Source: a virus | Virus record (IMG/VR): IMGVR_UViG_3300025137_000058 | Coordinates: 1 to 52,643 of that record | Reading direction: 5' to 3' (one strand) | Length of the DNA: 52,643 bases | Part shown: piece after piece, positions 4,044 through 47,137 of the stretch | Layout: each line of letters starts with the position of its first letter | Numbering within the stretch: the stretch's first letter is position 1 | The notes under the pieces: model-generated | What the model saw: only the letters and a program-made list of their open reading frames with translations | What the model was told of the DNA's origin: nothing | The model's database searches: none | Program-made: the position numbers and the translations under genes

Positions 4044-4855
4044 GTTATTTAGAAACAAAAACAGGTAGTCTTGAAGAGGCAATCAGAAAGCATGATGAAG
4101 ACTATCAAGCAATGTTTAAAAAAGAATTAGATAAATCAGGTAAGTCGATAGGTCAAATGACACCTGATGAAAAGAAAGCATTCTTTAATAAGTTAGATAA
4201 AATGCATACTGCAAAGAATGAAGCAAAGGTTGACGAGTTAACTAAAGCACAAAAGAAGTTACCACCTGGATTGCAAAAAGCAATCAAGAAAAAGGAAATG
4301 AAAGAAGAACAGATTGATGAGGTTAATTTAACCTTTATTAGAAAGTTTGCAGACGATATGAAGAAGGACAAACAGTTTAAACCATTCGCAGATAAGTTTA
4401 TGAAAATGGCAATGAAGGGTGGTAGTCCAAGAGATGCACTTGAAAAATCATTACCAGATTATATCTCTGGTAAAGACATAGAAAAATTAATTGATAAAAA
4501 TAGAATGAGTGCTATATTTGGTGAAGATGTGCGTGAGTCAAAACAAGGTAAAGTTGATGTATTGAAAACAAAACTTGCTAAAGAGAAAGACACAGACGCA
4601 TTGCAAAAACAAATAACACAGTTGACAGGTCAGTTAGCATTAGCAAAACAAAAATTAGAAAACGAAAAGCACGGAAAATTACAACCTGAACCTAATCCTG
4701 AAACAGGTGAAGTTCCGTTAACAGTTGGTATTGCATACAAACATTTAAGAGATAAGATGAAAAAAGAAGAAGAGAAAAAACCAATAAAGAAAACTATGGT
4801 AGGGTCAAAAGCAGATAAAGTTGATACGGAACCTGAGGTTGAATTCGACAGATAA
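4040..4855 (+). CDS. Virion/prohead-core-like protein with coiled coil
   Basis: 271 aa, highly charged. The N-terminus has LEEA, a possible gp21-type site, and the module GQMTPDEKKAFFNKLDKMH at about residues 37-56, a segment common in marine T4-like structural proteins. EEQIDE near residue 90 repeats the acidic L/I-x-E linker of the upstream gene. Residues about 170-215 (LAKEKDTDALQKQITQLTG onward) form a predicted coiled coil. The C-terminus is Lys/Glu-rich and disordered. The start overlaps the upstream stop (ATGA) and the stop overlaps the next ATG (TAATGG), so it is translated within the same operon. No enzymatic signature is seen. Confidence 0.55.
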   Translation: MSYLETKTGSLEEAIRKHDEDYQAMFKKELDKSGKSIGQMTPDEKKAFFNKLDKMHTAKNEAKVDELTKAQKKLPPGLQKAIKKKEMKEEQIDEVNLTFIRKFADDMKKDKQFKPFADKFMKMAMKGGSPRDALEKSLPDYISGKDIEKLIDKNRMSAIFGEDVRESKQGKVDVLKTKLAKEKDTDALQKQITQLTGQLALAKQKLENEKHGKLQPEPNPETGEVPLTVGIAYKHLRDKMKKEEEKKPIKKTMVGSKADKVDTEPEVEFDR

Positions 4856-5346
4856 TGGATTCATCTACAAGAATTTATTGTGATATGGATGGTGTGCTTT
4901 GCGATTTTGCGAGAAACATTAAAACAACAACGGGAATGACAATCGATAAGTGGATGCGAGTCGATAAAAACGAAAGATGGAAAAAAATAATAGAAAAGGG
5001 TACTTTTTGGTCAACAATGCCATGGTTAAATGATGGTAAAAATCTTTGGAGATTTATAGAAAAGCATGACCCATATATTTTATCCGCCGCATCTCAACAA
5101 GACCCTAATTGTAAACCTGGAAAAATGCAATGGATAGCAAGAAACTTAGGTATACCTAGAAGTAGAGTTCATCTAGTTCAAAGACATGAAAAACAGATGT
5201 TTGCAAAGACGGGTGGTCAACCTTGTATTTTAATAGATGACTATGGCAGAAATACAAAAGAATTTACAACACGAGGTGGTGTTGGTATCAGATTTCAAAA
5301 TGCTGGTCAAGTTATCAGAGAATTGAAAGGACTTGGTTTCAATTGA
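4855..5346 (+). CDS. HAD-superfamily 5'(3')-nucleotidase-like phosphatase
   Basis: 163 aa. Motif I is DMDGVLCDF (residues 10-18), with nucleophile Asp10 and acid/base Asp12. Motif II is the ILSAAS Ser near residue 77, and motif IV is LIDDYGRN near residues 124-131. The arrangement and small size fit the 5'(3')-deoxyribonucleotidase/NIF-like branch of HAD hydrolases, common in T4-like marine phages. It could dephosphorylate nucleotides or nucleic acid ends in the cytoplasm; the substrate cannot be read from sequence. It sits at the end of the structural operon just before a late promoter. Confidence 0.8.
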   Translation: MDSSTRIYCDMDGVLCDFARNIKTTTGMTIDKWMRVDKNERWKKIIEKGTFWSTMPWLNDGKNLWRFIEKHDPYILSAASQQDPNCKPGKMQWIARNLGIPRSRVHLVQRHEKQMFAKTGGQPCILIDDYGRNTKEFTTRGGVGIRFQNAGQVIRELKGLGFN

Positions 5347-5347
5347 T

Positions 5348-5355
5348 TATAAATA
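5348..5355 (+). promoter_or_regulatory. T4-type late promoter TATAAATA
   Basis: A perfect match to the T4 late promoter element, two bases after the stop of the HAD gene. It lies 24 bases before the PqqA-like peptide start (5379) and upstream of the virion gene at 5499. The presence of a gp33-like coactivator in this window supports use of this element. Confidence 0.75.
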
Positions 5356-5378
5356 CTTTTTTAATTAAGGAGAAATTT

Positions 5379-5453
5379 ATGTGGAAGAAACCAGAAATAA
5401 AAATGATAAGTGTAGGATTAGAAATTAATTGCTATGCTTGTGCAGAAATATAA
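5379..5453 (+). CDS. pqqA-like: PqqA-like precursor peptide (24 aa)
   Basis: A 24-codon gene with a strong Shine-Dalgarno (AAGGAG at about 5368-5373) and its own late promoter. It starts MWKKP, has G13-L14-E15 and Tyr19, and ends at Ile24. Bacterial PqqA peptides (about 22-29 aa) share M-W-x-K-P, a central Gly, and the E-x-x-x-Y pair that PqqE crosslinks. Here the pair is E15/Y19, the numbering I recall for Klebsiella PqqA. Unlike classical PqqA, the tail has two Cys (C18, C22) instead of the usual Thr/Ser/Arg residues. No pqqB, C, D or E is in the window, so host enzymes would be needed. Alternatively it is a PqqA-derived peptide with another role. Confidence 0.72.
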   Translation: MWKKPEIKMISVGLEINCYACAEI

Positions 5454-5498: not shown

Positions 5499-5804
5499 AT
5501 GTCAAGTTGGTCAAATACAGATGCTCATGGTAGTGCGCCGTTATGGGCACTAGCAAGGGTAAATAAAGAACCTAAAGCGGCGAACATGGGCGCCGCCGCA
5601 TCAGGTAAACTATTTAATAACGCAACAGAAGATAATCTTATAGATGGAGTGACTATCGGTCTTTTTAATTTTAAAGACGGAGAAGAACAAAGTGGTAAGA
5701 TTGCTCATGTTGGTTGGAATTTAAAAACTACTGGAACAGGAGGTCGTGCTAGTAGAATACAATTCGAAACTTTAGTATCTTTGGCAAATAGTCAAGATGC
5801 ATAA
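5499..5804 (+). CDS. Small virion structural protein of marine T4-like phages
   Basis: 101 aa beginning MSSWSNTDAHGSAPLWAL, with a conserved C-terminal half HVGWNLKTTGTGGRASRIQF. Both segments are typical of a short beta-rich virion protein family of marine T4-like phages. It has a clear RBS (AAAGGGAGAG) and is served by the late promoter at 5348. The exact location in the particle is not known to me; a decoration or neck component would fit its size. Ala-Ala-Ala at about residues 32-34 is coded GCCGCCGCA, part of the window-wide avoidance of GCAGC and GCTGC. Confidence 0.6.
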   Translation: MSSWSNTDAHGSAPLWALARVNKEPKAANMGAAASGKLFNNATEDNLIDGVTIGLFNFKDGEEQSGKIAHVGWNLKTTGTGGRASRIQFETLVSLANSQDA

Positions 5805-12214: not shown

Positions 12215-12610
12215 ATGGCGTTACCATTAATAGGTACAGCACTAGGACTTGTAGGAGATTTAGCAGGTAACTGGATGAAAGGTAAAGTCGATAAACAGAA
12301 AGCAGAGAGTGACGTTAAAGTTGCAAAAGCAAAAGCAGAAGCAGTTGTGTATCAAAAACAAGCAACCGGTGAAATAGATTGGGATATAGAATCAATGAAA
12401 GGTTCACAATCATCATGGAAAGATGAATGGTTAACAGTTATATTTTCTATACCATTAGTGATGTGTTTTATTCCAGGTATGGAAGAAATAGTGCAGAATG
12501 GATTTGCTAGACTTAACGAACTACCAGAATGGTATCAATACACATTAGGTGTTATTGTCGCCGCCAGTTTTGGTGTACGTTCTGCGACTAAGTTTTTCGG
12601 AAAGAAATAG
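12215..12610 (+). CDS. Holin of the 3-TM (GTA holin-like) type
   Basis: 131 aa. A hydrophobic N-terminus (LPLIGTALGLVGDLAG) is followed by a charged Lys/Ala helix, the signature SSWKDEWLTVIFSIPLVMCF, and a last hydrophobic helix GVIVAASFGVRSATKFFG. The WKDEW motif preceding a membrane helix is typical of the three-TM holin family first described in gene transfer agents. It would form inner-membrane lesions at lysis. A strong terminator follows it, so it closes this transcript. Confidence 0.75.
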   Translation: MALPLIGTALGLVGDLAGNWMKGKVDKQKAESDVKVAKAKAEAVVYQKQATGEIDWDIESMKGSQSSWKDEWLTVIFSIPLVMCFIPGMEEIVQNGFARLNELPEWYQYTLGVIVAASFGVRSATKFFGKK

Positions 12611-22318: not shown

Positions 22319-23228
22319 ATGTGTAGACTGGTCATTAGAAAAAGCAAACGAAAGAGTAAAAAATGGTAAAAATGAGAGAGACCCTTATATTGAAAGTTTT
22401 TCTACAGGAAGTGGTGGTAAATACTTAAATGAAGATACTTTCACAACTAAGGATAAAACACCTTGTGTATTTAGAGGGTTAGGTAAAACTCATTTAATAT
22501 ATGCTTGTATAGAAAATAATATTGATTACTTATATATTGACACAGGTTATATGGGTAATAATTTAACAAAACATTATCATAGAATAGCATTTAATAATTT
22601 ACAAACACTAAATCATCTATCACCTAAAGAAGTAAAAGATAGAATGTATGCAGAGTTTGGTGACATCATAGCACCTAAAGTTTTGAATACTAAAAGACCT
22701 TTAGTAAGGTGGAATTTGCAAGTTAGAGAAGAACATAAGAATAAAAAAATATTAGTTGTGCCACCTAGTCAAAAAGTTTTTAATCATTTTGGCGGTGATG
22801 CTAAAAAGTATACTAAAAATTTAATAGAGAAGATTAAAACAATATCAAACAGACAAATTATTATAAGAGAAAAAATGTCAAGGTCACAAAGAGTTGATTA
22901 CTCTTTACAAGACCAACTAAGAAAAGGTAAATATCATTGCATAGTTACATTCAATAGTATAGCATCTGTTGAAGCAGTAAGTATGGGTGTTCCAGCAGTA
23001 ACTTTAGGTCCAAATGCTGGTGGATTTATAAGTGAGTTAAATTTTAAGAACATAGATAAACCATATTTTCCTAACACACAAGATATATTTGACCACTTAG
23101 AGTATTTAAAATGGTGTCAATTTACAGGTCCTGAAATGCTAAGACCAGATACTTCTAGAGTTATAAAATGTTTGCAAGGTGATGAAAGACCACAACTGTT
23201 CAAAATAAATGAGGATTTTAATGTTTAG
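22308..23228 (+). CDS. GT-B-like protein of glycan island, paralogue B
   Basis: 306 aa. It has KKILVVPPSQKVFNHFGG (about residues 145-162), matching KHVLICPSSPTVTQQL in the 29723 gene, then CIVTFNSIASVEAVSMGVPA, the donor-binding E-A-x-x-x-G-x-P segment of GT-B enzymes. The N-terminus FRGLGKTHLIYACIENN then YLYIDTGYMG is shared in pattern with the 29723 gene. Probable glycosyltransferase or polysaccharide export-like enzyme; acceptor unknown. Confidence 0.55.
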   Translation: MSYRCVDWSLEKANERVKNGKNERDPYIESFSTGSGGKYLNEDTFTTKDKTPCVFRGLGKTHLIYACIENNIDYLYIDTGYMGNNLTKHYHRIAFNNLQTLNHLSPKEVKDRMYAEFGDIIAPKVLNTKRPLVRWNLQVREEHKNKKILVVPPSQKVFNHFGGDAKKYTKNLIEKIKTISNRQIIIREKMSRSQRVDYSLQDQLRKGKYHCIVTFNSIASVEAVSMGVPAVTLGPNAGGFISELNFKNIDKPYFPNTQDIFDHLEYLKWCQFTGPEMLRPDTSRVIKCLQGDERPQLFKINEDFNV

Positions 23229-24447
23229 ATTTCTAAATCATTCTAGTTTTATAGTAGGTAATATTTTAGTGGATCCATGGTTTAACGAAAGTGTTTTTTT
23301 AAATAGTTGGAACTTACTAAAAGAATTTGATTATGATATTAATAAATTAAGATACGAATACATTTACCTATCACACGAACACCCAGACCATTTTCACATA
23401 CCAACTTTAAAAAAGATTGCTAATCCTGAAAGTAAGACAGTTATATTTCACAAAACCACAGACGGTAAAGTTGTAGACTTTGTAAAAAATATGGGTTTTA
23501 AAATTATAGAATGTGAAAATGACATGTTTTATGACTTGAACTTTGGTAAAATAAAAGTACAATCAAATGGGTTTGACAGTTTCTTCATCTATAAAACAAG
23601 CACAGGTCAAACTATTATTAATATGAATGATTATCAAGTAAAAGATGCTGATGAACTTGAAAAATTAAATGAACCAGATGTGGACTATTTATTCTCACAA
23701 TTTACATATGCTAATTGGGCAGGTAATAAAGATGATGATATGCTACCCAAAAAAGCACAGAGAATTATAAATGATAGGTTGAGTATACAGTTTAAAGTAT
23801 TTAAACCAAAAACATGGATACCTTCAGCATCATACATCTACTTTTCACATGAAGAAAATTTTTATATGAATAAACATACTCCTAGTTTTAGTAGTATCAA
23901 AGCATTTGCAGAATCAAAAAATATTAATTGTGTTTTTCCTACACCTGATATGATACACAATAATAGAATGGGTGATAATGCAATACAATATTGGACAACA
24001 ATGAAAGGATTAATAAATCCTATACATAAAAATAATGTGCAACCTTTAGAAGAAGTAAAAAAATCATTCTTAGTAATGTGTGAGGAAATACATAATAAAA
24101 ATAATATGTCTTTGTTTAACGAAGAAGAAACTTACATTAGTGTACCAGACTGGAGCAATGTCATAAAATATGATATTAAAAATACAACATTTGAAATAGT
24201 ATCACAACTAGAAAACGATATAACTATGTCGAGTGAGTGCTTACATTTTTTAATTAAAAATAAATGGGGTAGAGGTACTGTATTAATAAGTGGTAGGTGT
24301 CAGATAAATTACGAAAAAGCAAATAACTTTTTTAATCAGACAAACTTATGGTATTATAATAACATTGGTAAACATTTAGGTACAAACCTAACAATGAGTG
24401 AAATTATTAATCAAGATAACTTTTATGAGGAATTAATTAATGTCTGA
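23221..24447 (+). CDS. Metallo-beta-lactamase-fold hydrolase
   Basis: 408 aa from ATG 23221, chosen because GAGGA sits just upstream; ATG 23209 is the alternative. N-terminal NHSSFIVGNILVDPWFNES then YLSHEHPDHFHIPTLKK gives the H-x-H-x-D-H metal site, and INMNDYQVKDADEL follows where the next Asp ligand is expected. The long C-terminal half (FSQFTYANWAGN onward) resembles large MBL proteins of sugar loci, such as UlaG- or CMP-sugar hydroxylase-like enzymes. Substrate unknown. Confidence 0.7.
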   Translation: MFRFLNHSSFIVGNILVDPWFNESVFLNSWNLLKEFDYDINKLRYEYIYLSHEHPDHFHIPTLKKIANPESKTVIFHKTTDGKVVDFVKNMGFKIIECENDMFYDLNFGKIKVQSNGFDSFFIYKTSTGQTIINMNDYQVKDADELEKLNEPDVDYLFSQFTYANWAGNKDDDMLPKKAQRIINDRLSIQFKVFKPKTWIPSASYIYFSHEENFYMNKHTPSFSSIKAFAESKNINCVFPTPDMIHNNRMGDNAIQYWTTMKGLINPIHKNNVQPLEEVKKSFLVMCEEIHNKNNMSLFNEEETYISVPDWSNVIKYDIKNTTFEIVSQLENDITMSSECLHFLIKNKWGRGTVLISGRCQINYEKANNFFNQTNLWYYNNIGKHLGTNLTMSEIINQDNFYEELINV

Positions 24448-25635: not shown

Positions 25636-26055
25636 ATGATACGAGATGTTAAGACGGGTGAGAACTGTAATATAGTAGAACCTGTAAATCTATATGATTG
25701 TACAATAGGCGACCATTGTATGGTAGGTCCATTTGTAGAGATACAAGGTAATGTTACTATTGGTAATAAAGTAAGAATTCAATCGCATAGTTTCATATGC
25801 GAGAACACACAGATATTAGATAGTACCTTTATAGGTCACGGTGTTATGTTTACAAATGATAAGTTTACAGACGGTAAATTAACTAAAGATTTTCTACCAA
25901 CAAAGGTAGGTTATAGATGTAGAATAGGTTCAAATGTAACTATATTACCCGTTTCTATTTGTGATGATGTTGTGATTGGTGCAGGTTCAGTTGTTACAAA
26001 AGATATCACTAGAAGAGGAGTTTATGCAGGTAATCCAGCAGTGAGAATTAAGTAA
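25636..26055 (+). CDS. Hexapeptide-repeat N-acetyltransferase (WbpD/WlbB-like)
   Basis: 139 aa left-handed beta-helix. Repeats of the type I-G-x-x-x-x-V are seen at CTIGDHCMVGPFVEIQGNV, TIGNKVRIQSHSFI and VVIGAGSVVTKDITRRG, and the end GVYAGNPAVRIK is typical. Size and N-terminus (MIRDVKTGENCNIVEPVNLY) match the amino-sugar 3-N-acetyltransferases WbpD/WlbB. Next to a Gfo/Idh/MocA dehydrogenase and a DegT aminotransferase, this completes an oxidation-transamination-acetylation trio. Confidence 0.75.
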   Translation: MIRDVKTGENCNIVEPVNLYDCTIGDHCMVGPFVEIQGNVTIGNKVRIQSHSFICENTQILDSTFIGHGVMFTNDKFTDGKLTKDFLPTKVGYRCRIGSNVTILPVSICDDVVIGAGSVVTKDITRRGVYAGNPAVRIK

Positions 26056-27005
26056 TGATTGCACTTGTTGGTTATGGTTATTGGGGAAAGAATTTAGCAA
26101 GAGTATTTAAAGATAAATTAAAATACATAATTGATAAAGACGACCATAATTTAAATAAAGCAAAGTATAGTTATGGTAATAATGTTAACTATGATAGAAG
26201 TTTAACGAATGTTTTAAAAACTGATAAAAGTATTAAAGCAATACTAATAGCAACAAAACCCGAATCACATTTAGACATTGCAAAGTTGTGTTTAAGATAT
26301 GGTAAACATATATGGATTGAAAAACCTGTTTGTACAACATACAAACAAGCATTAGAACTACTAAAATACCATGAGAAGACAAATAATAGATTAAGAGTGA
26401 TGGTTGACCATACATTTTTATTTCATCCTGCTATTAATAAATTAGTATCAATTAATATAGGTGAACCTTTATATTACGATAGTCATAGAATTAGTTTAGG
26501 ATTATTTCAAAAAGATGTTGATGTTGTAAAAGATTTAGCAATACATGACTTAGCAATAATTAAACATTTGTATCCCATGATGCAATTAAAGAAAAAAACT
26601 ATAGTTAAACATAATCATGTGAATAATATTCATAATCAAGCAATATTATGTTTAGAATTTGAACAAGGTGGGTTGACAAAACGAAAGTTTACTGCTACCA
26701 TTAATTGCAATTGGGTAAGTCCTGTAAAGAAACGAGAAATAATCTTGACAGGAACAAAAAAATCTGTTATATATGATGACATAGACGTGAATAAAATTAA
26801 AATTTATAATACAGGAAAGATTGGCGAAGATTATAATATAAATCAATTAGGTGATATGAAAAGTCCTAAACTAGATACGACTGAAGCATTAGTCAATGGT
26901 AGAGCAAACTTTTTAGGTGCAATAGATAATGAGTGCAAACCTATGATGTCAGACTTAAAATTTTCTGTAGATTTGATGAGATGGATAGATGATACCATAT
27001 TATGA
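26055..27005 (+). CDS. Gfo/Idh/MocA-family sugar dehydrogenase (WbpB/WlbA-like)
   Basis: 316 aa. Rossmann start MIALVGYGYWGKNLARVF (G-x-G-x-x-G). The family signature is the catalytic Lys in GKHIWIEKPVCTTYKQA (about residues 91-107), and the later LAIHDLAIIKHL carries the His-Asp pair. In WbpB the reaction is NAD-dependent oxidation at C3 of a UDP-sugar uronic acid. It starts inside the stop of the acetyltransferase (TAATG) and overlaps the aminotransferase by 17 bases. Confidence 0.8.
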   Translation: MIALVGYGYWGKNLARVFKDKLKYIIDKDDHNLNKAKYSYGNNVNYDRSLTNVLKTDKSIKAILIATKPESHLDIAKLCLRYGKHIWIEKPVCTTYKQALELLKYHEKTNNRLRVMVDHTFLFHPAINKLVSINIGEPLYYDSHRISLGLFQKDVDVVKDLAIHDLAIIKHLYPMMQLKKKTIVKHNHVNNIHNQAILCLEFEQGGLTKRKFTATINCNWVSPVKKREIILTGTKKSVIYDDIDVNKIKIYNTGKIGEDYNINQLGDMKSPKLDTTEALVNGRANFLGAIDNECKPMMSDLKFSVDLMRWIDDTIL

Positions 27006-28083
27006 CATGAATGAAATTCATAAACCTCTGAAAGACGAGTTTATGAGTCAAGTAAAAGAATTACTGGATACAAACAATTTTGTATTTGGAACAGATAAGT
27101 TCGAAGAAGAATTTGCAGAGTATACTGGTGCAAAATATTGTGTGGGTGTAAATAGTGGTACATCAGCATTAATACTTGCCCAATTTGCATGTGGTGTTCG
27201 ACCTGGTGACTTAGTAAAAACAGTATCTCATACATTTACAGCAACAGTCACAAGTATAAAACATTTAGGTGCTTCACACGAATTTGTAGATATAGATGAA
27301 AAAACTTATTGCATGGATCCAGAAAAATTAACACAAGATTTTAGAACAAAAATTATACTACCTGTGCATATGTATGGTAATGCTTGTGATATGCCTGGAA
27401 TAATCTCTAAGAAATCAACATCTACAATTATAGAAGATTGCTCACAAGCACACGGAACTAGAATAAATGGTAAACACGTTGGTACTTTTGGTAAAGCAGG
27501 TACTTTTAGTTTTTATCCAGGAAAAGGTATAGGTGCATTTGGTGATGCTGGTTGCATTATAACAGATGATGAGGGTTTAGCAATCGAATTAAAAGAACAA
27601 CGTAGTTGGAAAGAAAATGATGTAGGTTTTAATTTTAGAATGGCAAACATTAATGCTAAGTTTATAAGTTTAAAACTAAAACACTATCCTGAAGTTTTAA
27701 AAGCAAAGAAAGAAATAGCACAATATTATGATAAACATTTATCAGATTGTCATGTTAATGATGGTGTAGAGCATAGTTATCATATCTATCCTTTATTACA
27801 TAAAGATAGAGAGAACTTGATTAGGAGATGTAATACTGAATTACAATTAAAAAAACATTACGACAAACCTGTGCATCATAATCCAGCATTTCATTTCACA
27901 TCAGATACATGCACATATTGTAGTGCTAAAGAAATGAAAGATTTTAATTTACCTGTAACAGATAAAGTATCTGCATCACAGGTGAGTGTACCTATTTATC
28001 CAGGTCTAAATAAAGAAGAAGTGATTGATATTTTACAAAAACATTGGAGTAATGGTAATGGTTCATCTAATTCCGTTTTATAA
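26989..28083 (+). CDS. DegT/DnrJ/EryC1/StrS sugar aminotransferase (WbpE/WlbC-like)
   Basis: 364 aa. PLP-fold features: CVGVNSGTSALILAQFACGV (cofactor phosphate), TIIEDCSQAHGTRINGKHVG (PLP-ring Asp and the conserved D-x-x-Q-A-H-G), and FSFYPGKGIGAFGDAGCI with the Schiff-base Lys. N-terminus MIPYYDMNEIHKPLKDEF fits the family start. It would aminate the 3-keto sugar made by the WbpB-like enzyme. The upstream donor (UDP-GlcNAc uronic acid) is not made by any gene in this window. Confidence 0.85.
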   Translation: MIPYYDMNEIHKPLKDEFMSQVKELLDTNNFVFGTDKFEEEFAEYTGAKYCVGVNSGTSALILAQFACGVRPGDLVKTVSHTFTATVTSIKHLGASHEFVDIDEKTYCMDPEKLTQDFRTKIILPVHMYGNACDMPGIISKKSTSTIIEDCSQAHGTRINGKHVGTFGKAGTFSFYPGKGIGAFGDAGCIITDDEGLAIELKEQRSWKENDVGFNFRMANINAKFISLKLKHYPEVLKAKKEIAQYYDKHLSDCHVNDGVEHSYHIYPLLHKDRENLIRRCNTELQLKKHYDKPVHHNPAFHFTSDTCTYCSAKEMKDFNLPVTDKVSASQVSVPIYPGLNKEEVIDILQKHWSNGNGSSNSVL

Positions 28084-40230: not shown

Positions 40231-40457
40231 GAAATGATATGCTTGATGCAGTAAGAATGTCTTGTGAAGGACAATTACAAGCACATAAAATAAACGTAGA
40301 AATTTATTTAAATAAATCAATAGGTATTGGTGAACATAGTGATATCATACAAACTGTTATAAAAGAATTAGAGCAAGTGGCGAAGTATGAAGAACTATTG
40401 AATACTTTAGAAAATCATTTTAAAAAAGAAGAAGTTTACATAGATGAAATTAAGTAA
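40215..40457 (+). CDS. Small conserved phage protein, unknown
   Basis: 80 aa. MSKSMRNDMLDAVRMSCEGQ, then KINVEIYLNKSIGIGEHSDI and a helical end. The segment N-x-E-I/V-Y-L-x-x-x-x-G-I-G-E-H is a repeated signature of small phage proteins. RBS AAAGGAG. Function unknown. Confidence 0.55.
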   Translation: MSKSMRNDMLDAVRMSCEGQLQAHKINVEIYLNKSIGIGEHSDIIQTVIKELEQVAKYEELLNTLENHFKKEEVYIDEIK

Positions 40458-41496
40458 GATACCTGGTTTAGGTAGATTTGGCATATACGTTGATGATTTA
40501 AAGATTGAAGATTTGAATAATGATAGATGGTTACTATTAGGTGAAGAACACCTAAAAGGTTTAGTAACCATTATTCGTGATGTTAAATTCAAAGATGCAG
40601 GTGAGTATAAAAAGTGGATGAAGAAATGGGGTAATCCACTTTATTTACCCATGTTAGCATTAAAGAAAAAATACAACATCAAAAAGTGGACTGCTTATGA
40701 TTTCTTTAAAATGGATAAAGAAGATAAAAAGTATATAGAAGATGTTAAAAGAATGGTCGTATCAGCAGATGGTAGATTTAATAGTGTGTTGAGAGTTACA
40801 GAGAACAGAACATCTGATGATAAACCTATGGGTCTATTTGGTAGAGGTGATTTAGAATGGCACTGTAATGATGGTGGACTGCTATATTCTATTCCTGGTA
40901 TATCATTATGGGGTCAAAGAAATATGACCAATAGTAGCACAGGTTTTATGACAACAGTTGATTGGTATGAGGAACAACCTGAGAGTGTTAGAAAAGAATT
41001 AGATGATGCAATTGTGATTCACAAATATTCATCACAACAAGTTAATCCAGATGGTGAAAAATATGATGATGAGGTTGTAAGCAGAAACGTATTCTGTGAT
41101 GGTAATATAGCATCAAAATTACATAATGATGAAAACCTACCAGAGATACCTTTGGTTAGAAAATCTTTATACGGATATCGTGGTATACATTTAAGCACAT
41201 CATGTTATCAAATCGTAGGTTTATCAGTAAAAGAATCACAAAAGTTTTTTGACCATTTACGAAAGTCACTGTTTCAGGAGAAATATACTTACAGACATAA
41301 ATATAAGAAAGACAATGATTTATTGATTTTTGATAATACCATTACGTTACACAATAGAGAAGGTAAAACTAAGGATAGATTAGCATTTAGAATACCTAAC
41401 GATTATTCTAAATTAAGACCTGAGTATAATCCTTACATTCAAGAACCATATAAATCAGATTACGCAATAATAAAGGAAAATTATGCCAACATATGA
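40444..41496 (+). CDS. TauD/TfdA-like 2-oxoglutarate oxygenase family protein
   Basis: 350 aa. The N-terminal lid is followed by LFGRGDLEWHCNDGGLLYSI (about residues 134-153), the place of W-H-x-D in TauD. The distal part DLLIFDNTITLHNREGKTKD and RLAFRI supplies the second His and the 2-oxoglutarate Arg. The proximal motif reads H-C-N rather than H-x-D, so iron binding may be altered or Asn may be a ligand. Marine phages carry many such genes; substrate unknown. Confidence 0.65.
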   Translation: MKLSKIPGLGRFGIYVDDLKIEDLNNDRWLLLGEEHLKGLVTIIRDVKFKDAGEYKKWMKKWGNPLYLPMLALKKKYNIKKWTAYDFFKMDKEDKKYIEDVKRMVVSADGRFNSVLRVTENRTSDDKPMGLFGRGDLEWHCNDGGLLYSIPGISLWGQRNMTNSSTGFMTTVDWYEEQPESVRKELDDAIVIHKYSSQQVNPDGEKYDDEVVSRNVFCDGNIASKLHNDENLPEIPLVRKSLYGYRGIHLSTSCYQIVGLSVKESQKFFDHLRKSLFQEKYTYRHKYKKDNDLLIFDNTITLHNREGKTKDRLAFRIPNDYSKLRPEYNPYIQEPYKSDYAIIKENYANI

Positions 41497-46003: not shown

Positions 46004-47137
46004 ATGAGATTTGATGGATTAATACCTGGTTATCAGGTGGATGTGAATGTAAATAATAAATCTTCAGTAAACAGATATTGGGATTATGGTAGAATTGTTG
46101 ATGGTAAGAAACAATTAGACCCACATTTACATTATGGTTGTTATCTTCTAGGATATAAACAATTAGATTTTATAACAAAAACACAAATACAGATGATACT
46201 ATCTGAACTACCAGAAGTTGGTGAGAACTTTCTATCTTCAGATGAACTATATCTAAACAGTAGAAGTTTTGAGTTAGCAACAAAAATAAAAGAGATGAGT
46301 GGTGGATTTAAAAGTTTCTATGCACTATCAGGTAGTGATGCAAATGAAGGTGCTATCAAATTAGCATTTGCATATAATCAGAAAAAAGGTAATGATAAAA
46401 GAAAAGTCATATTAAGTTTTGATGGTAGTTATCACGGTTCTACATATCTAACTCAATCAGTCGGTAATACTTTATTTAATGAAGACCCATTTTATGGAGT
46501 ACCAAAATATAATTGGAGTAGAATAATTGATAGAAATGATGACATTACAAAAACAGTTGATTTAGAAAAAGTAGCATGTATTATAGTAGAAACACATACT
46601 TATGCTAAGAAATTAAAACCATATACAGAGAAGTTTTGGAAGAATTTAGAAATCATTAGAATCATGTACGATATTCCTATAATTGTAGATGATATATTCA
46701 TGGGTGGTGGTAAATTAGGTAAGTTCTTTGGTTGGGAGACAACATCATTTAGACCTAGTATATTTACAATGGGTAAATCAATCACTGGTGGTCATTTTCC
46801 ATTATCAATGACTTGTTATGACAGTTATATTGATGACGCATTAGGTGATGATTTTAATTGGGACCATGGATATACATATTCTTTTTATCAACCAGGTATT
46901 ATGAGTATGTTATACTATCTTGAAAAATTAAACTTTGATAATTTTGATAAAATTAGAAAAACAGTCACAGAAATATTTGAGAAAAATGACTTTGAAATAC
47001 AAGCAAATGCTGGTATTATTTTTAGCACTAAACGAGAAAAACCATATCATCTAATAGCACCTTTAAATGCTACTGATGAATATTATGACGTGTTAAATAC
47101 AACATTGACAAATTTAAAAGAAAGTGTTATAACATAG
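46004..47137 (+). CDS. Class III PLP aminotransferase
   Basis: 377 aa. FYALSGSDANEGAIKLAF (phosphate site), LSFDGSYHGSTYLTQSVGN, IIVDDIFMGGGKLGKFFGW (PLP Asp) and FTMGKSITGGHFPLSMT (Schiff-base Lys). This is the glutamate-semialdehyde/acetylornithine aminotransferase family, slightly shorter than bacterial homologues. No strong Shine-Dalgarno before the ATG. Nearby AdoMetDC genes suggest a possible link with amino acid or polyamine metabolism. Confidence 0.85.
   Translation: MRFDGLIPGYQVDVNVNNKSSVNRYWDYGRIVDGKKQLDPHLHYGCYLLGYKQLDFITKTQIQMILSELPEVGENFLSSDELYLNSRSFELATKIKEMSGGFKSFYALSGSDANEGAIKLAFAYNQKKGNDKRKVILSFDGSYHGSTYLTQSVGNTLFNEDPFYGVPKYNWSRIIDRNDDITKTVDLEKVACIIVETHTYAKKLKPYTEKFWKNLEIIRIMYDIPIIVDDIFMGGGKLGKFFGWETTSFRPSIFTMGKSITGGHFPLSMTCYDSYIDDALGDDFNWDHGYTYSFYQPGIMSMLYYLEKLNFDNFDKIRKTVTEIFEKNDFEIQANAGIIFSTKREKPYHLIAPLNATDEYYDVLNTTLTNLKESVIT

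Follow-up and report, generated by a model that had tools for sequence, protein, structure and literature searches.

In PQQ synthesis, PqqD-bound PqqA is crosslinked by PqqE at a glutamate and a tyrosine, and both residues end up in PQQ; because these crosslinked residues become the cofactor, PqqA is consumed one to one for each PQQ made. With one molecule spent per PQQ, PqqA could plausibly become limiting when host transcription has been shut off by a phage.

Carriage of pqqA by phages is itself already known. PqqA together with a methanol dehydrogenase was reported for the Lake Baikal phage VP_266 in 2020 (PMC7678222), and a 2026 report on reservoir sediment viruses lists pqqA, pqqE and pqqD as viral auxiliary genes (PMC13188868). 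No further report of phage pqqA was found in the open literature, and the gene goes unmentioned in the papers on the OM43 phages MEP301, Venkman and Melnitz. New in the present analysis are the occurrence of the alphaproteobacterial peptide type in marine myophages, its setting in a late operon, the copies left unannotated in cultured methylophages, and how widely the gene is distributed.

The window and its peptide gene

The window, meaning the whole stretch of 52,643 nucleotides that was analysed, is an IMG/VR virus record encoding a T4-type tail tube, a phage SSB, a ribonucleotide reductase, a primase and a RuvC-like resolvase. Its nearest named relatives are the Pelagibacter phages HTVC008M and Mosig and the Methylophilales phage Melnitz; judged by these genes and relatives, it is a true phage genome, that of a Melnitz/HTVC008M-like, Kyanoviridae-like marine myophage. 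The features around the peptide gene are as follows:

4855 to 5346, + strand: HAD / 5'-3' deoxyribonucleotidase-like gene (phrog_2643, E=9e-25), with homologues in Melnitz and HTVC008M
5348 to 5355, + strand: TATAAATA, a T4-type late promoter box, 2 nt 3' of the HAD stop and separated from the pqqA ATG by 23 bases
5367 to 5372, + strand: AAGGAG, ribosome-binding site assigned by sequence, 6 nt 5' of the pqqA ATG
5379 to 5453, + strand: pqqA-like gene, ATG to TAA, 24 residues, MWKKPEIKMISVGLEINCYACAEI; assigned by its TIGR02107 match and by same-site orthologues in L345, L346, L347, L349 and L350
5470 to 5498, + strand: AGTGAGTACCTAAAAAGGGAGAGAATATT, a conserved leader preceding the gene at 5499, from comparison of the window, L345, L346, L349 and L350 with L361 and L388
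5499 to 5804, + strand: downstream gene, 101 residues, presumed structural (weak phrog_26159 match, E=0.0075); the gene at the equivalent position in Melnitz and HTVC008M is annotated as an S-layer protein

A sequence-only reading of this DNA had proposed a PqqA-like peptide of 24 residues carrying E15 and Y19, and the equivalog family model bore this out. TIGR02107 (NCBIfam PQQ_syn_pqqA, an equivalog) matched the window ORF with 29.2 bits (E=5.9e-7), above its cut-off of 20, and scored 37.9 bits against the L345 orthologue and 23.4 bits against the L349 type; Pfam PF08042 aligned over its full 19-position model with 20.5 bits, just below its gathering cut-off of 21.1. The window contains a single copy of the PqqA signature M-W-x2-P-x7-G-x-E-x3-Y, and 100 dinucleotide shuffles of it gave no copy. 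The length of the peptide falls within the roughly 22 to 29 residues used as the family criterion, the leader residues W2 and P5 are present, and the E-x-x-x-Y pair stands at E15/Y19, which we take to be the pair crosslinked by PqqE. The good ribosome-binding site claimed by the same reading is likewise found in AAGGAG.

No member of the PQQ beta-propeller, PqqD or radical SAM families was found when the 52.6-kb window was searched for them, and a metallo-beta-lactamase-fold gene (23209-24447), considered as a candidate PqqB, was tested and proved not to be PqqB. Possible auxiliary genes of other kinds include a TauD-like dioxygenase (40444-41496), a Gfo/Idh-type sugar dehydrogenase adjoining an aminotransferase (26055-28083) and a class-III aminotransferase (46004-47137). 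A gene annotated without function, phrog_2524 (12215-12610), lies 6.8 kb from pqqA; a homologue stands immediately 5' of pqqA at about 14 other loci (e.g. L025, L142 and L206).

Conservation at the site and the late promoter box

Relatives were fetched with the HAD gene as anchor and without use of the peptide. In the five orthologue-bearing relatives, all with HAD identity of at least 74%, pqqA stands behind the HAD gene and ahead of the 5499-type gene; the sequence of a sixth close relative, L348, stops 65 bp past the HAD gene. The other HAD-anchored relatives, at most 54% identical, did not show pqqA at that site, and in Melnitz and HTVC008M the next gene starts 34-50 nt after the HAD gene.

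The expectation of the sequence-only reading that short ORFs at this place in related phages would be conserved proved correct: in the five relatives, whose HAD genes are 77 to 95% identical in nucleotides, all five orthologues keep W2, P5, G13, E15, Y19 and YACAE. Coding constraint, which that reading had also put forward for examination, was evident; pairwise pN/pS was 0.29 over the whole gene and 0.05 at codons 12-24, from pairs that are not independent. The flanking intergenic DNA carries indels in L346 and L349, the length of the ORF is unchanged, and the ribosome-binding site is kept among the relatives. Together these data confirm the ORF at 5379-5453 as a real gene for a PqqA-type peptide, and the gene at this site is under purifying selection.

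The promoter box has a different history from the one first suggested. TATAAATA occurs seven times on the + strand of the window and never on the - strand, and 78 of 81 relatives with enough sequence have it within 130 nt 3' of the HAD stop, against an expected 0.03 per locus. Nearly all of these 78 loci are without pqqA at that place, and the pqqA-less relatives L361 and L388 have a similar GAGTACCT...GGGAGAGAATA leader before the downstream gene. Since both box and leader are present in relatives lacking the gene, pqqA was introduced between a late promoter that already existed and the gene served by that promoter. The claim that the peptide gene has its own late promoter therefore falls; by this comparison the box is ancestral to the locus, belonging originally to the downstream gene, and would now serve pqqA as well as, presumably, the gene at 5499. 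A recurrent TATAAATA upstream of other phage pqqA genes was also sought, and was present within 120 nt in only 3 of 119 among the matches listed, so the arrangement is peculiar to the window locus.

Two types of PqqA in viruses and bacteria

The wider distribution was drawn from two IMG/VR scans of at least 120 matches each, whose counts are minimum values from a non-random sample, with phage origin checked for part of the loci. The matches fall into two types: the classical type, MWTKPSATEMRFGFEVTMYVMNK, and the type of the window, MWKSPVVKEVAVGLEINCYACAEI, here named class II. In a scan that left residues 15 and 19 free, E15 and Y19 were present in 120 of 120 matches listed, with the glutamate encoded by GAA in 80 and GAG in 40, and the tyrosine by TAT in 87 and TAC in 33. 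Class II phage peptides found through their C-terminal half alone had the leader W and P in 117 of 119 among the matches listed, and 47 independent pairs, again among the matches listed, gave a pN/pS of 0.38 at codons 3-12, positions which the search pattern leaves free. In the class II tail, either Cys or Ser stands at position 18, whereas Cys21 was fixed by the search pattern. The window copy is unusual in having M9, where 114 of 117 phage relatives among the matches listed have E.

Class II pqqA stands in up to 20 gene-context groups among the matches listed, at least 10 of which contain several loci, although the number of single-locus groups is possibly inflated by short contigs; such a variety of contexts suggests that pqqA has been acquired repeatedly. 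PqqD and PqqE were searched for in about 44-45 pqqA-bearing records, the window included, and neither was found; radical SAM genes appeared in these records only in one 356-kb IMG/VR contig. This contig (L038, G032) has a classical pqqA and about 10 radical SAM genes, and is either a jumbo phage or host DNA. In a 72-kb virus record (L062, G037:34406-41952), a XoxF-type methanol dehydrogenase is encoded about 7 kb from a classical pqqA; the dehydrogenase stands behind a curli-like ORF. Phage-type pqqA was also seen in L232, binned as Maricaulis, and L277, assigned to Flavobacteriaceae, which are probably phage contigs in MAGs; L232 carries a phrog_2524 homologue as well.

Among cultured phages, a classical PqqA query revealed pqqA in nine sequenced Methylophilales phage records: Venkman, P19250A, MEP301, MEP401, MEP402 and four of Melnitz. 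These nine are not claimed to be all, as taxonomy holds further Methylophilales phages (MEP431-434, Venkman EXVC038S and phiMB624-A), which did not appear among the matches. The window peptide itself gave no tblastn match among INPHARED phages, and none of three PqqA queries matched a Pelagibacter phage record, an absence that is not firm given how weak a 24-residue tblastn query is. One match, to an Acinetobacter 'phage' MD-2021a (L495, CAKLQF020000010), was rejected as a piece of bacterial chromosome with ppk and pqqBCD, and holds no phage pqqA. The prediction that standard gene calling would miss the gene was accurate: no annotation covers pqqA in Venkman, P19250A, MEP301 or MEP402, and in Melnitz the call is on the opposite strand. 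In Melnitz-2 (76100-76205; L491:2961-3066) the call is a hypothetical gene that covers the true pqqA, MKWTKPVAQEMRFGFEVTMYIMTR, in antisense orientation and adjoins a tRNA-Leu. Genes of fewer than about 30 codons are thus a blind spot of viral metabolic gene surveys.

In bacteria, class II PqqA belongs to Alphaproteobacteria; the marine MAGs and single-cell genomes that carry it were deposited under Rhodospirillaceae, Pelagibacterales, HIMB59 and other names. Because YACAE class II peptides are the normal PqqA of this class, the two tail cysteines, which had been read as unlike classical PqqA and hence atypical, are no oddity. Among 16 genomes with class II pqqA, pqqE was above cut-off in 15, mostly about 2-3 kb from a pqqA, and a PQQ alcohol dehydrogenase in 11; one locus that was read through, L278, is a full operon with pqqA-B-C-D-E in that order. 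Three marine alphaproteobacterial genomes (G055, G057 and G059) have 4-5 copies of pqqA, and L263:2096-2819 holds three in tandem inside 730 bp, as if the dose of PqqA matters in hosts too.

Probable supply of host PQQ synthesis, its alternatives and known systems

We consider it quite likely, given the type of the peptide and its conserved residues, that the window gene is a phage-borne pqqA of alphaproteobacterial type, acting as an auxiliary metabolic gene that feeds PQQ synthesis of the host. The host would, going by the peptide type only, be a PQQ-synthesising bacterium. The gene would be transcribed late, from the ancestral T4-type late promoter; since the phages examined have no PqqD or PqqE, the peptide must rely on host enzymes, and it would be bound by host PqqD, crosslinked between E15 and Y19 by host PqqE, trimmed by host proteases and finished by PqqB/PqqC, yielding one PQQ per peptide. 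Takeover of host transcription by the phage may cause a shortage of PqqA that starves PQQ synthesis, and a 75-bp phage gene could refill it and so keep PQQ-dependent alcohol and methanol dehydrogenases supplied during virion production. Supply is favoured over the alternatives on these sequence grounds, as the simplest account, because pqqA is carried without pqqB-E and because the substrate residues are invariant. Some features of the window weigh against it: the copy has M9, it scores just below the Pfam cut-off, and no PQQ-dependent enzyme was detected in the 52.6 kb.

The sequence-only reading had also suggested that the peptide may be a decoy for PqqD/PqqE. By occupying them it would turn off host PQQ synthesis, or free capacity of SAM and iron-sulphur enzymes. 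The retention of the leader residues would suit such a role, as would the large amounts of peptide that a late promoter would give, but binding needs the leader and not the crosslinked pair, and E15 and Y19, needless for a decoy acting through its leader, are invariant in the 120 matches listed. The pairing of pqqA with a PQQ-dependent methanol dehydrogenase in at least one phage record and in Baikal VP_266 (PMC7678222) also points to supply; we therefore regard the decoy as disfavoured and unlikely. Still less probable is that the peptide, once crosslinked by PqqE, is released in this modified form to serve the phage otherwise, as a signal, virion component or inhibitor. The two conserved Cys/Ser positions of the tail could bear extra chemistry, and the gene lies in a late operon beside structural genes; however, an identical tail is found in bacterial pqqA, including one that heads a full pqqABCDE operon, and the pqqA of other phages adjoins unrelated genes.

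That pqqA is a passenger, a host gene picked up by chance, unused and degenerating, is slightly more doubtful again: the gene is very small and the window copy has its unusual M9, but the selection test at the same locus in five relatives (pN/pS 0.29) largely refutes this reading, and the kept ribosome-binding site and the many independent carriers also speak against it. Short ORFs are common in AT-rich DNA, but a chance ORF or regulatory leader peptide is refuted, with next to no probability left to it, by the family model score above cut-off, the absence of the signature from all shuffles and the conservation of residues amid synonymous change.

With supply as the favoured role, the pqqA of the many other viruses that infect PQQ-using bacteria probably also keeps the energy metabolism of the infected cell supplied. 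With more reserve, we find it probable that phages of PQQ-dependent bacteria supply PqqA as a general strategy, in which unrelated phages have taken up two host-matched types on many occasions and annotation almost always misses them, and that phages commonly control this stoichiometric cofactor step in marine Alphaproteobacteria and in methylotrophs. Should PqqA indeed be supplied by phages of ocean bacteria that oxidise methanol and alcohols, viral infection has a direct bearing on the oxidation of these compounds in the sea. Some carriers are in culture together with their hosts (Venkman and Melnitz on H5P1, MEP301 on FZCC2181), which already makes the idea testable.

The locus may be set against four known systems. 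VP_266 (PMC7678222) likewise encodes PqqA, proposed to aid PQQ-dependent host metabolism, but is a freshwater phage with a presumed Methylophilaceae host, whereas the window is marine, of alphaproteobacterial type, and yielded no PQQ enzyme in 52.6 kb. The reservoir viral pqq genes (PMC13188868) are from sediment and, in the accessible part of that report, are treated as phosphate-solubilising and given no peptide-level analysis, unlike the present study. The Methylophilales phages Venkman, P19250A, MEP301, MEP401, MEP402 and Melnitz share with the window the signature and the phage setting, Melnitz being of the same phage family, but their pqqA is of the classical type of 23-24 residues (FGFEVTMY) and lies at other genomic positions. 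The marine alphaproteobacterial PqqA of L278, L247 and L344 (MWKKPEIREVAVGLEINCYACAEL) is identical to the window peptide at 19 of 24 residues, with the same length, leader and GLEINCYACAE core and tail; the window copy differs in being encoded by a phage, with no pqqB-E nearby, behind a T4-type late promoter and with M9 in place of E.
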